A DNA stretch of 56,004 nucleotides from Candidatus Accumulibacter meliphilus. GTDB taxonomy: Bacteria > Pseudomonadota > Gammaproteobacteria > Burkholderiales > Rhodocyclaceae. The DNA lies in assembly GCA_003332265.1 (NCBI GenBank), contig QPGA01000008.1, positions 1 to 56,004 of the forward strand, given 5' to 3'. Shown in pieces: positions 1 through 55,153 of the stretch. The position numbers and the translations under genes were made by a program. How positions within the stretch are numbered: position 1 is the stretch's first letter; each line of letters starts with the position of its first letter. Under the pieces are notes generated by a model that worked only from the letters and a program-made list of their open reading frames with translations, made no database searches and was not told the DNA's origin.

Positions 1-104
1 GACTCGCGAAACTCCCGTCTCCCCTCGCGGGAGAAGGGTCAGGGGAAGAGGGAAACGGTCATGACTTTCATGACTTGGGGTGTCCCCACATGTCATGACC
101 GTTA
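1..104 (+). repeat. Dispersed three-hairpin repeat, copy 1 (cut by window edge)
   Basis: This is the right-hand part of a roughly 120-bp element that recurs at 18121, 28207 and 46309. Stem II (CCCGTCTCCC / GGGAGAAGGG, one mismatch) is followed by stem III, a perfect ACGGTCATGAC / GTCATGACCGT pair enclosing about 30 bases. The first stem is lost at the window edge. The last bases of the element (GTTA on the plus strand) contain the TAA stop codon of gatB, so the element sits directly against the 3' end of that gene. Confidence 0.85.
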
Positions 105-1553
105 GCCGAGCTTCTTGCGCAGCAGTGCGTTGACCTGTTGTGGGTTGGCCTTGCCGCGTGTCGCCTTCATCGCCTGGCCGACCAGCGCATTGAAGGCTTT
201 TTCCTTGCCGGCCCTGAATTCGCCGACCATCGCCGCATTGGCCGCCAGTAGTTCGTCAATCAGCGTTTCCAGCGCTCCGCTGTCGGTGATCTGCTGCAGG
301 CCCTGGCTGGCAATGATCTGGTCGGCAGAACTCCCTTCCCCGTTGCAGAGAGCGTCGAACACCTTGCGGGCAATATTCGTGGAGATCGTGCCATCGACGA
401 TGCGTGCGACCATGCCGCCGAGCTGCTCGGGCGAGACCGGTGACTGGCTGATATCCAGTTCTTCCTTGTTCAGACGAGCGGTCAGGTCGACCATCACCCA
501 GTTGGCGCAAGCCTTGGCGCCGGCGCTGCCGGCCGCGGCAACGGCTGTTTCGTAGTACGCGGCGAGTTCGAGCGAGCTGGTCAGGAGCTTGGCGTCGTAG
601 GCCGAGAGTCCGTACTCGGCGGCCAGGCGATCGCGTCGCGCGGCCGGCAGTTCGGGCAGTTGCTGGGCGATCTCGTCGATCCACTGGCGATCGATGATTA
701 GCGGCAGCAGATCGGGGTCCGGGAAGTAGCGGTAATCGTGGGCGTCTTCCTTGGAGCGCATGGCGCGTGTTTCGCCGCTCTGCGGATCGAAGAGAACGGT
801 TGCCTGTTCGATCCTGCCACCGTCTTCGAGGGTCGCGATCTGCCATTGCACTTCGTAGTCGATGGCCTGCTGCATGAAGCGGAACGAGTTCAGGTTCTTG
901 ATTTCGCGCCGGGTACCGAAGTCGGCCTGGCCGACCGGGCGAACCGAAACGTTGGCGTCGCAGCGGAAGGAGCCTTCCTGCATGTTGCCGTCGCAGATAC
1001 CGATCCAGCGTACCAGCGCGTGCAGCGCGCGGGCATAAGCGACGGCTTCGGCCGAAGAACGCATGTCGGGTTCGGTGACGATCTCCAACAGCGGCGTCCC
1101 GGCACGGTTGAGGTCGATTCCCGTCCGGCCGTGGAAGTTCGCCCCCGGGCATTCATGCAAGGACTTGCCAGCGTCTTCCTCGAGGTGGGCGCGGGTCAGC
1201 TTCACCACTCGCTCGTGCTCACCCACCGTGATCGCCAGCTGCCCGCCAACGACCACCGGCAGTTCGTACTGGCTGATCTGGTAACCCTTGGGAAGGTCCG
1301 GGTAGAAGTAGTTCTTGCGCGCGAAAACCGATCGCGGGGCGATCGTTGCGCCGACTGCCAGGCCGAAGCGGATTGCGCATTCGACGGCGCCCTTGTTGAG
1401 TACCGGCAGCACGCCAGGCAGGGCGATATCGACGGCATTGGCCTGGACATTGGGCTCGGCTCCAAAGGCTGTCGAGCTGCCCGAGAAAATCTTCGCTTGC
1501 GTCGACAACTGCGCGTGCGTCTCGATGCCGATGACCACTTCCCATGCTTTCAT
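102..1553 (-). CDS. gatB: Asp/Glu-tRNA(Asn/Gln) amidotransferase subunit B
   Basis: GatB binds misacylated Glu-tRNA(Gln) or Asp-tRNA(Asn), activates the acyl group with ATP and receives ammonia from GatA. The 483-residue product is full length for the family. It opens with the typical [13 protein letters not shown] segment and has the conserved kinase-like core ([16 protein letters not shown], then [19 protein letters not shown]). The C-terminal tRNA-binding YqeY-like tail ends in [11 protein letters not shown]. An in-frame GTG lies directly before the chosen ATG at 1553, so the start could be one codon earlier. It is the last gene of gatC-gatA-gatB, 101 bp after gatA, and its stop codon touches a dispersed repeat. 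Confidence 0.97.
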
Positions 1554-1654
1554 CACTGCTTACTCACTCTTCAATAACGACGCCCGTGGCCAGCGGCCGG
1601 CGGGCGAAAGGGGAGAGCTGGCGCCGCCTGGGCGCACCCACACTCACTGGCGCT

Positions 1655-18056: not shown

Positions 18057-18120
18057 AGTCTTGTCGCGCGCCTCTGCCAGGCGGCCGGAAAGGCTCCAGC
18101 AGTCGTTGTTTCGTCGTTAA

Positions 18121-18240
18121 TGTGAAAGTCGCCTATGCGACTCACGAACCTCCCTTCTCCCCCTGCGGGAGAAGGGCCGGGAGAAGAGGGGGACGGTCAT
18201 GACTTTCATCATCCGGGGTATCTCGACTGTCATGACCGTT
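18121..18240 (+). repeat. Dispersed three-hairpin repeat, copy 2
   Basis: This is a complete copy between prpC and prpD. Stem I is AGTCGC-CTAT-GCGACT, stem II is CCCTTCTCCC / GGGAGAAGGG with a 5-base loop, and stem III is ACGGTCATGAC / GTCATGACCGT around about 27 bases. It is preceded by TTAA, as copy 4 is. Sequence between the stems (AAGAGGGGG, and ACTTTCAT after the left arm of stem III) is also conserved among copies. Confidence 0.9.
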
Positions 18241-28190: not shown

Positions 28191-28206
28191 TTGTTTACTC
28201 CGTACC

Positions 28207-28328
28207 GCGAAAGTCGCGTACGCGACTCACGACGCGCCCTTCTCCCCTCGCGGGAGAAGGGTCAGGGGAAGAGGGGGGAACGGTCACGACTTTCATGATC
28301 AGGGGTGTCTCGACGTGTCGTGGCCGTT
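28207..28328 (+). repeat. Dispersed three-hairpin repeat, copy 3 (overlaps ccmC 3' end)
   Basis: Stem I is AGTCGCG-TA-CGCGACT, stem II is CCCTTCTCCC / GGGAGAAGGG, and stem III is ACGGTCACGAC / GTCGTGGCCGT. Compared with copies 1, 2 and 4, stem III has T-to-C in the left arm and a matching A-to-G in the right arm, which keeps the pair. A second right-arm A-to-G gives a T-G wobble. The right end encodes the last nine residues and stop codon of ccmC on the minus strand. Confidence 0.9.
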
Positions 28329-29069
28329 ACCGCTGAGCAGCGCGCGTACCCAGTCCGTGTGTCGTTCGCGTTCGAGCATGATCGTGCGCACCCGCATCAG
28401 AGCGATGGCGATGCTGTACATCCAGCAGGCCAGCGCGCAGAGCAGCATTCCCCAGAGCATCATGGCGGCCATGCTGGGGGCCTTGGTCAGGCTCACCGAA
28501 GCGCCCTGATGCAGGGTGTTCCACCACTTGACCGAGAAATAGATGATCGGAATGTTCACCACCCCGACCAGGGCCAGGATGGCGCCGGCCTTGTCGGCCC
28601 GGCGCGGGTCGTCGATCGCCGCCTGCAGGGCGATGAAGCCGATGTACAGGAAGAGCAGGATCAGCTCCGAAGTCAGGCGCGCGTCCCACACCCACCAGGT
28701 GCCCCACATCGGCTTGCCCCACAGGGCGCCGGTCCATAGCGACAGGAAAGCGAAGAGCGCGCCGGTCGGCGCCAGCGCCGAGGCCATCATTCCCGAGAGG
28801 CGGATATTGAATGCCAGCCCGATACCGGCCCAGAACGCCATGACCAGGTAGATGAACATCGACAACCACGATGCCGGCACGTGCAGGAAAATGATCCGGT
28901 AGCCTTCGCCCTGCTGCGCGTCGGTTGGCGCGATCAGGAAGCCGATGGTCAGCCCGGCAATGCCGAACAGCGCAGCGAGCGCCCAGAACCAGGGGATCAG
29001 CTTGCCGGCGAGCGGGTAGAAAGTCTGCGGACTGGCGTATTTGTACCAGTTGATTACTCTGTCAGTCAT
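28299..29069 (-). CDS. ccmC: Haem exporter membrane subunit CcmC
   Basis: CcmC, with the WWD haem-handling motif, loads haem onto CcmE. The 256-residue protein has six hydrophobic segments, FLHVPASWLSMF after helix two, and the tryptophan-rich GTWWVWDARLTSEL. It starts immediately after ccmB. The C-terminal NGHDTSRHP and the stop codon are written in the end of a dispersed repeat, so the natural C-terminus was probably replaced or extended slightly; the lost part is a non-conserved tail, and function should be intact. Confidence 0.95.
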   Translation of the reverse strand: MTDRVINWYKYASPQTFYPLAGKLIPWFWALAALFGIAGLTIGFLIAPTDAQQGEGYRIIFLHVPASWLSMFIYLVMAFWAGIGLAFNIRLSGMMASALAPTGALFAFLSLWTGALWGKPMWGTWWVWDARLTSELILLFLYIGFIALQAAIDDPRRADKAGAILALVGVVNIPIIYFSVKWWNTLHQGASVSLTKAPSMAAMMLWGMLLCALACWMYSIAIALMRVRTIMLERERHTDWVRALLSGNGHDTSRHP

Positions 29070-46300: not shown

Positions 46301-46308
46301 TGGTTTAA

Positions 46309-48929
<2,621 letters not shown>

Positions 48930-49285
48930 GTATTCTCGGCTGTGAAGTCATCTATGGTGACTCACAGAGATCGGGAAAAAGCTCCGTTGAGCTCGGCTTT
49001 CGTTGCTCACGGTCTGCAGAAAGAGGCGGCCAGCTGTGGGCAACAAGCTCTTCGGCCTAGTGGTCGTTAGACGGAGAAGAGCCAGAAATGCTTTACGCAT
49101 CAACCGGAAAGCCGTCTGAGAAAGTAGGTTCAAGCGGCTAGGCGCTGCCAGCCACACCTCGTATAATTCCGACACCGGAGTTGTGGCTGCAACAACGAAA
49201 TCGTGGTGGTCTATGTGTAAGCATCGTCGTCTTCCGACGATGGCACGTCGTCCATACAATCTGATCTTGGAGAAGGTACACAATT
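48930..49285. other. Intergenic region between gyrB and an unknown gene
   Basis: This 356-bp stretch has no gene I can support. It holds a remnant of the three-hairpin repeat (48941-48966), a weak hairpin AGCTC-CGTT-GAGCT (48980-48993) followed by CGGCTTT that could act as a poor gyrB terminator, and an isolated TATAAT (49162-49167) without a recognisable -35 that may serve the next gene. A 111-codon minus-strand frame covers most of it but looks non-coding. Confidence 0.6.
48941..48966 (+). repeat. Remnant of the three-hairpin repeat (stem I only)
   Basis: TGTGAAGTCATCTATGGTGA followed by CTCACAG is close to the TGTGAAAGTCGCCTATGCGA CTCAC start of copy 2, including the inverted AGTCA...TGACT arms. 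Stems II and III are missing. It begins 12 bp after the gyrB stop. Confidence 0.5.
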
Positions 49286-50533: not shown

Positions 50534-50609
50534 TCTCACCCCCAGCCCTTTCTTACTCAGTGAGGCGAAGGGAGATAGTGAGTCGCCTACTCGACGACTT
50601 GCACATTAA
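50534..50609 (-). repeat. Diverged inverted copy of the three-hairpin repeat
   Basis: Read on the minus strand this gives TTAATGTGCAAGTCGTCGAG TAGGCGACTCAC, matching the TTAATGTGAAAGTCGC...GCGACTCAC start of copies 2 and 4. A decayed stem II (CTCCCTTCGCC...AAGAAAGGGCT) and a C/G-rich end follow. Stem III is absent. It lies 22 bp upstream of the phosphofructokinase ATG. Confidence 0.6.
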
Positions 50610-54504: not shown

Positions 54505-54580
<76 letters not shown>

Positions 54581-54605
54581 GCAAGGCGAAAGATGTCAGT
54601 TCCGG

Positions 54606-54681
54606 GTCCCCATCGTCTAGAGGCCTAGGACACTACCCTTTCACGGTAGGTACCGGGGTTCGAATCCCCGTGGGGACGCCA
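54606..54681 (+). tRNA. tRNA-Glu (anticodon TTC)
   Basis: This is a 76-base cloverleaf with an encoded CCA. Acceptor GTCCCCA pairs with TGGGGAC, the anticodon stem is CTACC/GGTAG with loop CTTTCAC, and the T-arm is CGGGG-TTCGAAT-CCCCG. It lies 25 bp after tRNA-Ala, and both are probably processed from one transcript. Confidence 0.98.
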
Positions 54682-54949
54682 GCGCTACTGCAGTTCTTGC
54701 AGGCGCCACGCACAACGAGGTCGAGGCTTTGCTTGCCGCATACCGGGAAACCTGGGCAGCCATCGCGTGCTCGGTTTTGGGCGCCAAATCCATAGCTTAC
54801 GGCGGCGAGTGCGTCGCTATTGACTCGGCAGTTGTCCGCTGATCACCAACAATGGTGTCCGCGGCGTGCTTTTCCGTAGCAGCGAGCGCGGCCGAAAGAT
54901 ATCAATATTCTTGCCAAAGTCCAGCGATTCCAGTAACTTGGGCGCTCAC

Positions 54950-55032
54950 GTTGGGGGTGCCACGCTGCTAGGGTGTGGCTGAGAGAGTCCCTTCGAACCT
55001 GTACGGGTCATGCCGTCGTAGGGAAGCGGAGC
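54950..55032 (+). promoter_or_regulatory. TPP riboswitch (THI element) upstream of thiC
   Basis: The segment has the conserved landmarks of the thiamine pyrophosphate aptamer in order: GGGGTGC at the P2 start, GGCTGAGAG, CCCTTCGAACCTGTACGGGT and TCATGCCGTCGTAGGGAAGC. Thiamine pyrophosphate binding should lower thiC expression. Downstream, CCTTGCA (55096-55102) can pair with TGCAAGG (55140-55146), covering the ribosome site of thiC. A GCGCAC/GTGCGC hairpin (55031-55054) follows the aptamer. The 268 bp between tRNA-Glu and the aptamer show no gene. Confidence 0.95.
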
Positions 55033-55153
55033 GCACCATGTTTGCTTTGTGCGCAGGGTGATAGCCTTCACTCCGTCTCGCTCGTCTTGCCGACCCCTTG
55101 CACGCTGCACGTTTGCGTAGCGCTTTTGCCTTACCCCTCTGCAAGGAAACACC

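Follow-up and report, generated by a model that had tools for sequence, protein, structure and literature searches.

The locus considered here raises the question of what a geneless repeat of about 120 bp, built of three successive hairpins, is and how it has spread. The window, i.e., the whole analyzed stretch of 56,004 nucleotides from Candidatus Accumulibacter meliphilus (contig C88, QPGA01000008.1), contains several copies of this short element, for which the earlier note had left open a non-autonomous mobile element, a structured RNA or DNA signal and a protein-binding site. Comparison of the sequences points, with a probability of about 0.8, to a non-autonomous satellite, similar to a MITE, of an IS110-family insertion sequence of the bridge-RNA type. 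At the level of sequence, the short element and such IS110s have their ends, core dinucleotide and target classes in common and form mixed arrays, and the sites of the element are polymorphic between strains; we infer mobilization in trans, expression of a bridge RNA and a circular intermediate.

Structure and abundance of the short element

Four near-complete copies with the order stem I, stem II, stem III, reported in the earlier note, were all found on the plus strand of the window, with cmsearch scores of 151.1, 142.5, 129.9 and 106.2 bits. Copy 1 (1..104, 106.2 bits) is 5' truncated and has lost stem I, since the window starts at the first base of contig C88; the converging ORF 102-1556(-) uses the final TTA of this copy as its stop codon. 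Copy 2 (18117..18240) is a complete short form, composed of a TT core, AATG...GACCG and a second TT core, with stem I at 18122..18145, stem II (CCCTTCTCCC/GGGAGAAGGG) at 18152..18176 and stem III, with the loop motif TTTCAT..GGGG, at 18193..18239, all on the plus strand; a motif related to stem II is also found solitary elsewhere. Copy 3 (28203..28329) and copy 4 (46305..46431), the latter being the top-scoring copy in the window, are also complete; the extents given for copies 2, 3 and 4 are approximate and include the flanking TT. The diverged inverted copy previously placed at 50534-50609 was recovered on the minus strand as a degraded left half, the copy having probably belonged to the long form (50536..50609, profile E 1.3e-6; covariance model 21.9 bits, where palindromic copies reach 24.6 bits on the wrong strand). 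A proposed stem I remnant at 48941-48966 was absent both from the profile matches (E up to 0.01) and from the covariance-model matches (E up to 10) and is not counted.

The short element is geneless, and DNA folding gave z-scores of -3.06 to -5.66 for three copies, one of them on both strands. A search of the window against Rfam at gathering thresholds gave no match to the element; the only matches, a TPP riboswitch and two tRNAs (tRNA-Ala and tRNA-Glu) at 54505-55041, are all ordinary.

The genome (4.70 Mb, 120 contigs, 91% complete) contains about 300 copies of the element. When an 18-base motif from stem III was searched for at a tolerance of three mismatches, 303 matches (153 + 150) were obtained, versus none for the reversed motif, used as a control; in 400 kb of contig C1, 30 profile matches were found, 20 of them full length, versus none in the reversed sequence. 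A strand skew was observed on the same contig (L314-L333), with 23 plus and 7 minus copies, tandem copies counted. A 40-base pattern of the element was found in at least 70 stretches of named records, all of them from Candidatus Accumulibacter among the matches listed. Within the genus, 23 of 28 genomes, including this one, contain at least one match, and first-look candidates range from none to 299 per genome. In the wider family, matches were detected in 22 of 150 genomes and in 17 of 68 sampled genera, a count that includes Accumulibacter and some genera represented by the stem II motif alone.

Full copies, measured from TTAA to the end of GACCGTT, are mostly 118-122 bp long. A long form of ~190-205 bp, with a central block of ~75 bp that probably holds further hairpins, is present in several genomes of the genus (L057, L063, L064, L066, L111, L137 and others). 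Among 50 copies from the genus, stems I-III are paired in 96.5% of cells, and seven pairs are changed on both sides versus 1.9 in shuffled data; the paired T-to-C and A-to-G change noticed earlier in stem III of copy 3 is real and falls in columns 90/125 of alignment A1. In the covariation test that the earlier note had proposed, 47 cells with changes in both partners were counted over 35 copies from the wider family, versus 11.5 +/- 5.3 in shuffled data, and the covariation score is 0.176 versus 0.095 shuffled and 0.03-0.07 slid, in an alignment (A4, 35 rows) that was fitted to the structure model and for this reason leans to structure. Alignment A4 replaced A3 (44 rows), in which eight loci have no good right module and one row is an overlapping reverse match, and was used instead of the MAFFT alignment A2, in which the 5' arm of stem III is misaligned across genera.

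Double changes are confined to stems II and III, while stem I varies one-sidedly; the loop motif of stem III is mostly kept. The earlier suggestion of selection on a folded structure is supported across genera for stems II and III, stem I having no double changes. Since hairpin template switching could mimic paired changes without selection, structure-based selection on stems II and III, as read from the alignments, is likely rather than proved.

Stem II seems to be a repeat module in its own right, with a wide distribution. A motif similar to it occurs solitary, without stems I and III, in L345, L348, L352 and in the Aeromonas record NZ_AP026896.1. Stem II resembles the solitary CCCTCTCCC..GGGAGAGGG repeats of Proteobacteria, which have neither stems I and III nor IS110 ends.

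Insertion sites, core dinucleotide and arrays

The flanks were read for 88 full copies of this genome. The 64 non-tandem left flanks read T (92%), T (97%), A (97%) and A (94%), and in the 62 non-tandem right flanks GTT is followed by A (92%) and then by G (73%) or A (21%). The commonest pair is TTAA on the left and TTAG on the right. Empty sites were readable in relatives in eight cases, a number that excludes the candidates L155 and L096 and the scarred sites, all of them unreadable. A single TT is present at six of the eight (18117, read as gtcgTTcgtcg in G017; 28203, empty in G017 and G009; L111; L158; L016:389; and L107), and the filled versions of these six sites carry TT, or a worn GT or TC, on both sides. 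At the other two, namely, the site of copy 1 and a site common to G009 and G015, relatives read TC, CT or GC. Accordingly, the inserted unit appears to be AATGTG...GACCG, with TT (AA on the opposite strand) at both borders.

The element is present or absent at the same positions in different strains, and this polymorphism, together with the existence of an autonomous relative with the same ends (see below), supports the option of a non-autonomous mobile element. The check for target-site duplications that had been advised revealed no ordinary duplication, only the 2-bp core, and no terminal inverted repeats. The features of a classical DDE-type MITE were not found: the ends TTAATGTGAAAG and GACCGTTAG share at most 7 of 13 positions in inverted orientation (by eye), and a multi-base target-site duplication is absent, the flanks differing beyond TT. 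Where relatives have the full element, L049, L084 and L176 (the copy 1 site of G026) retain no more than a short scar similar to GTCATGACCGTT, suggesting that such scars are deletion remnants.

An integron cassette with an attC site was also considered and rejected. The crossover in integron attC sites occurs at G^TT, with G before TT, and the base before TT is G in 30% of the 64 left flanks.

When genes were predicted by a simple method based on codon usage, 3 of 66 sites fell within a gene, and 59 sites could be classified as lying between two genes. The gene that terminates on the right has the right-end TTA as its stop codon in 11 of 39 cases, and on the left the TAA serves in this way in 7 of 23. 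The rarity of sites within genes, the many copies at gene 3' ends, the compensatory changes that stems II and III show across genera and the conserved loop motif of stem III would suit a cellular structured RNA or DNA signal (terminator-like, a stabilizer of mRNA 3' ends or a protein site), spread and kept as useful to the host. Such an origin is quite unlikely in view of the candidate numbers, which vary from none to 299 per genome within one genus, of the polymorphic sites and of the boundaries, which are explained by the ends and core of IS110. Later use of a mobile short element by the host is compatible with the data.

Adjacent full copies are arranged head to tail in all 21 unique pairs (26 before removal of duplicates). 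A tandem partner is the best match in 9 of 42 comparisons, and the mean identity of partners is 0.906 versus 0.885 for random pairs (p 0.049); local duplication alone was rejected as the source of the arrays on the basis of the former value, though partners are slightly more alike than random. The upstream copy outscores the downstream copy against the profile in 18 of 23 pairs (Wilcoxon p 0.001) and looks the younger of the two. Since partners are mostly not the closest copies and the upstream copy looks younger, new copies appear mostly to insert beside old ones in one orientation. Inverted junctions are present among partial or nested copies (L172, L133:15420).

IS110 elements with the same ends

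The profile of the right module of the element matches the left end of 13 distinct copies among 51 IS110 loci (E 4.5e-6 to 0.0066); in the loci centred on the DEDD domain, the match lies ~240-300 bp upstream of it. The earlier note had recognized no named family with this architecture; the link to IS110 was first made in the present analysis.

The same profile gave one match only in 30 loci of Y1 transposases, and this match is a true copy of the element. Movement by an HUH Y1 transposase of the IS200/IS605 or RAYT type, which would read the end hairpins as folded DNA, could account for the hairpins near both ends without clear inverted repeats and for the one-way insertion beside a short fixed motif, and Y1 genes are present in 25 of 28 Accumulibacter genomes. 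Nevertheless, it is very improbable. The ends of the element are shared by 0 of the 30 Y1 loci scanned, one of which has an ordinary element copy; the element-rich genome G012 is without Y1, and the element-rich G009 has one weak partial match only. In G010, the insertion strand showed no relation to the replichore (63 of 101 copies with no more than one mismatch, a symmetric terminus being assumed); a dif search found nothing. Y1 transposases were rejected as the partner, being present in most genomes yet not tracking the copy number, with none of the 30 loci having the ends of the element.

Read in gene sense, the matching IS110s begin with AACGGTCATTGC...CCCCGGATNATGAAAG, with small variation, and their left flank ends with CT or TT in all but one copy (L289, CC). 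The right end of type A is CTTTCACATTAA in 7 of the 10 copies read, with one or two deviating bases in each of L284, L285 and L289; the right end of type B is CTTTCACGGTAA. The short element, on the same strand as IS110, begins with AACGGTCATGAC...CCCCGGATCATGAAAG, has the spacing of type A and ends with CTTTCACATTAA. In copy 2 of the window, stem I plus the preceding bases reads ...CTTTCACATTAA on the opposite strand, as in the right end of type A, and stem III on the opposite strand resembles the IS110 left end AACGGTCAT...CCCCGGATNATGAAAG. Gapless comparison of the left ends of one typed pair of IS110 and element showed 30 of 39 positions to be identical, versus a mean of 9.9 and a maximum of 20 in 20,000 shuffles. 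The element and IS110 alike are bordered on either side by AA, which reads TT on the window strand. The IS110s are ~1.55 kb long (1.75 kb for L289), with an ORF of 406-408 aa where intact; the one ORF tested (L302, genome G011) contains PF01548 and PF02371, i.e., the RuvC-like DEDD and Tnp domains.

DNA of type A IS110 gave 13 matches in this genome, 9 of them longer than 180 bases, and left or right ends of IS110 are present at three contig ends, which would be a common picture for multicopy elements in a draft assembly. No complete recombinase gene of this type is readable in this genome, where the copies L425, L427, L428 and L429 are partly N, and its two PF01548 matches are other IS110s. 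In the element-rich genomes G009, G004 and G012, PF01548 gave no match; IS110 DNA is represented by short pieces only in G009 and G004 and is absent from G012. Genomes G001 and G014 contain IS110 and few short elements. Presence of IS110 judged by PF01548 alone does not track the copy number of the element, and the link to IS110 came from the ends. The tally of IS110 DNA in 26 of 28 genomes is overstated, since in other genomes the short element itself probably accounts for some of the matches, those of 28-41 bases. Among 12 genomes of other genera (G061 for the stem II match only), IS110 was found in 4, and 0 of 5 loci have these ends. Where an intact partner is missing, activity may be past or due to another recombinase.

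Mixed head-to-tail arrays of IS110 and the short element were found at seven places: at five of them (C34, C106 and C45 of this genome; C2 and C39 of G015), all distinct, a short element is immediately followed by the IS110 left end, and in L288 and L306 a short element comes after the IS110 right end. Other arrangements were observed around these elements. In G015:C110 (L284/L397), IS110s of type A and type B lie ~130 bp apart in the same orientation, with different donor motifs; a match to group II intron domains D1-D4 (RF02003; L287:2263-2380, minus strand) lies directly beside an IS110 left end; and L033:915-1497 (G000:C25) is an insert of ~580 bases in an element just after stem II, presumably similar in sequence to a group II intron at its 3' end.

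A different IS110 with an ORF of 439 aa (L306:975-2407) is inserted in a short element just after stem II and, being located inside the element, was rejected as the autonomous partner. Its junction, GGGGAAGAG followed by CAACTG, recurs in L243:2914-2982 (G000:C88 near 118.9 kb), and IS110s of this type seem to use the short element as a landing site. Both this junction and the occurrence of the repeat in genera without any IS110 found to have these ends would agree with the reverse likeness, i.e., that IS110 copies captured the ends of an older repeat or only insert into it as a landing pad. This is unlikely, as copies of types A and B carry the ends themselves at unrelated sites, CCCCGGATNATGAAAG is located internally in IS110, with the type A spacing as in the element, and the donor-like motifs described below mostly match the right ends of their own IS110.

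Guide-like motifs, proposed movement and significance

In the IS110 family, the left end gives rise to a bridge RNA, two loops of which pair with the target and the donor, and the core dinucleotide belongs to both the target and the donor pairing (PMC11208160; for the bridge RNA of the family, see also PMC11208158). The left end of the IS110s studied here, ~253 nt long, contains ..CTAACG or ..TTAACG and, ~53 nt further on, a donor-like motif. The target-guide-like motif, located at about position 105-110, is ..GCTAACG, ..CTTTAACG or ..GCCTAACG; the donor-like motif is GCGCACACATTAA (with variants) or GCGCACGGTAA. The latter motif equals the right end of the same copy in 10 of 13 copies read. 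In type A, it is identical to the copy's own right-end 8-mer (CACATTAA) in 4 of 7, with one base off in L285 and L287 and two in L289; in type B (G011), it is identical (CACGGTAA) in 6 of 6, these being near-identical copies of one lineage. A third kind of IS110, L304, has CACGGTAA in both the donor-motif and the right-end places.

The target-guide-like base at -2 coincides with the insertion-site base at -2 in 20 of 21 copies (14/0/1/6, Fisher p 1.3e-4), the sites being separate insertions but the guides falling into few lineages. In this set, copies with the same 40-base junctions were merged, 2 of 23 copies had no readable target guide, and copies that failed the left-end motif were left out; L439, one of the latter, agrees with the -2 rule outside the count. 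Only 10 of 2000 shuffles were as good as the own guide-target pairings. Agreement is 0.95 at -2 and 1.0 at -1, where the base is invariant, and 0.19-0.43 further out. Copies with a ..CTTT guide are located on ..CACATT, the right end of the short element, in 4 of 7 merged cases versus 0 of 14 others. A right target guide was not found in the IS110 left ends, and the MFE folds of these ends vary between copies, the loops being placed by sequence rather than by structure. The targets of the short element belong to the same two classes as those of IS110, namely, CT-AA and TT-AA.

In the proposed scheme, the short element, on the strand opposite to the window, would have kept both IS110 ends, the left one (AACGGTCAT...CCCCGGATNATGAAAG) being folded as hairpin III and the right one reading ...CTTTCACATTAA, without the recombinase gene and the guide loops. 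The recombinase and bridge RNA of IS110, acting in trans, would recognize these ends as a donor, and recombination at the core dinucleotide, AA on this strand and TT on that of the window, would insert the element in one orientation. Guides programmed for CT would direct copies to sites after CT-AA, mostly at gene 3' ends, where CTAA stop codons lie, and guides programmed for TT would direct them to the right end of earlier copies, giving rise to head-to-tail arrays; on targeting of TT-AA, the younger copy would lie upstream as read on the window strand. Folding of the left end as a hairpin may assist the recombinase or protect the ends. Movement of the element as an IS110 donor in trans is chemically reasonable, since a 22-bp donor of IS621 was recombined with bridge RNA supplied in trans (PMC11208160).

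A fuller reading, slightly more likely than not, is that an RNA-guided recombinase has acquired a satellite in nature: a donor of ~120 bp, geneless and guideless, would have reached ~300 copies by means of borrowed bridge RNAs, IS110s of the same genome would have two target programs (CT-AA at gene ends and ..CTTT-AA, often the right end of the satellite), and host and satellite would build mixed arrays through retargeting of the guide.

Similar to IS110 with bridge RNA, as represented by the IS621 passages of PMC11208160, the element has IS110-like ends, apparently flanked on each side by a core of 2 bp, is without clear inverted repeats and shows one-way insertion that appears to be sequence-guided, and its partner here has PF01548 and PF02371 (one ORF) and a long non-coding left end. 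Unlike IS110 itself, it lacks both a recombinase gene and guide motifs, and its length is ~120 bp versus 1.55 kb. MITEPsy1 (PMC3189936) and MITEPye1 (PMC11578231), as presented in the matched text of these papers, are likewise short and geneless and carry insertion-sequence ends, but have terminal inverted repeats and direct target repeats, both absent from the element; their authors refer MITEPsy1 to ISPsy2 (IS5?) (PMC3189936) and MITEPye1 to IS1182 (PMC11578231). REP/RAYT repeats (PMC3733652) share with the element the high copy number, intergenic location and palindromic structure, whereas the element is longer and modular and shows no link to a Y1 gene here. By eye, its consensus contains neither a GTAG nor a CGTC tag. 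The matched text of a 2024 review of prokaryotic MITEs (PMC10969869) does not include IS110. In a literature search covering sources other than subscription papers, preprints and ISfinder, no IS110 satellite, described as a MITE, miniature or non-autonomous element, was found among the papers listed, and the matches listed for repeats of this kind in Accumulibacter contained nothing on the element.

Short geneless derivatives of insertion sequences are well known, and bridge-RNA recombination, described in 2024, is pursued as a genome-writing tool; the connection of such a derivative with IS110 is new here. A satellite of this kind would bear on the natural movement of foreign DNA by bridge-RNA recombinases and on the evolution of their guides. 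If the element is such a satellite, each genome would offer hundreds of natural donor-target outcomes, two natural target programs for comparison and a minimal natural donor. The same reading would explain a repeat that is present at assembly contig ends and at many gene ends in an important wastewater organism.
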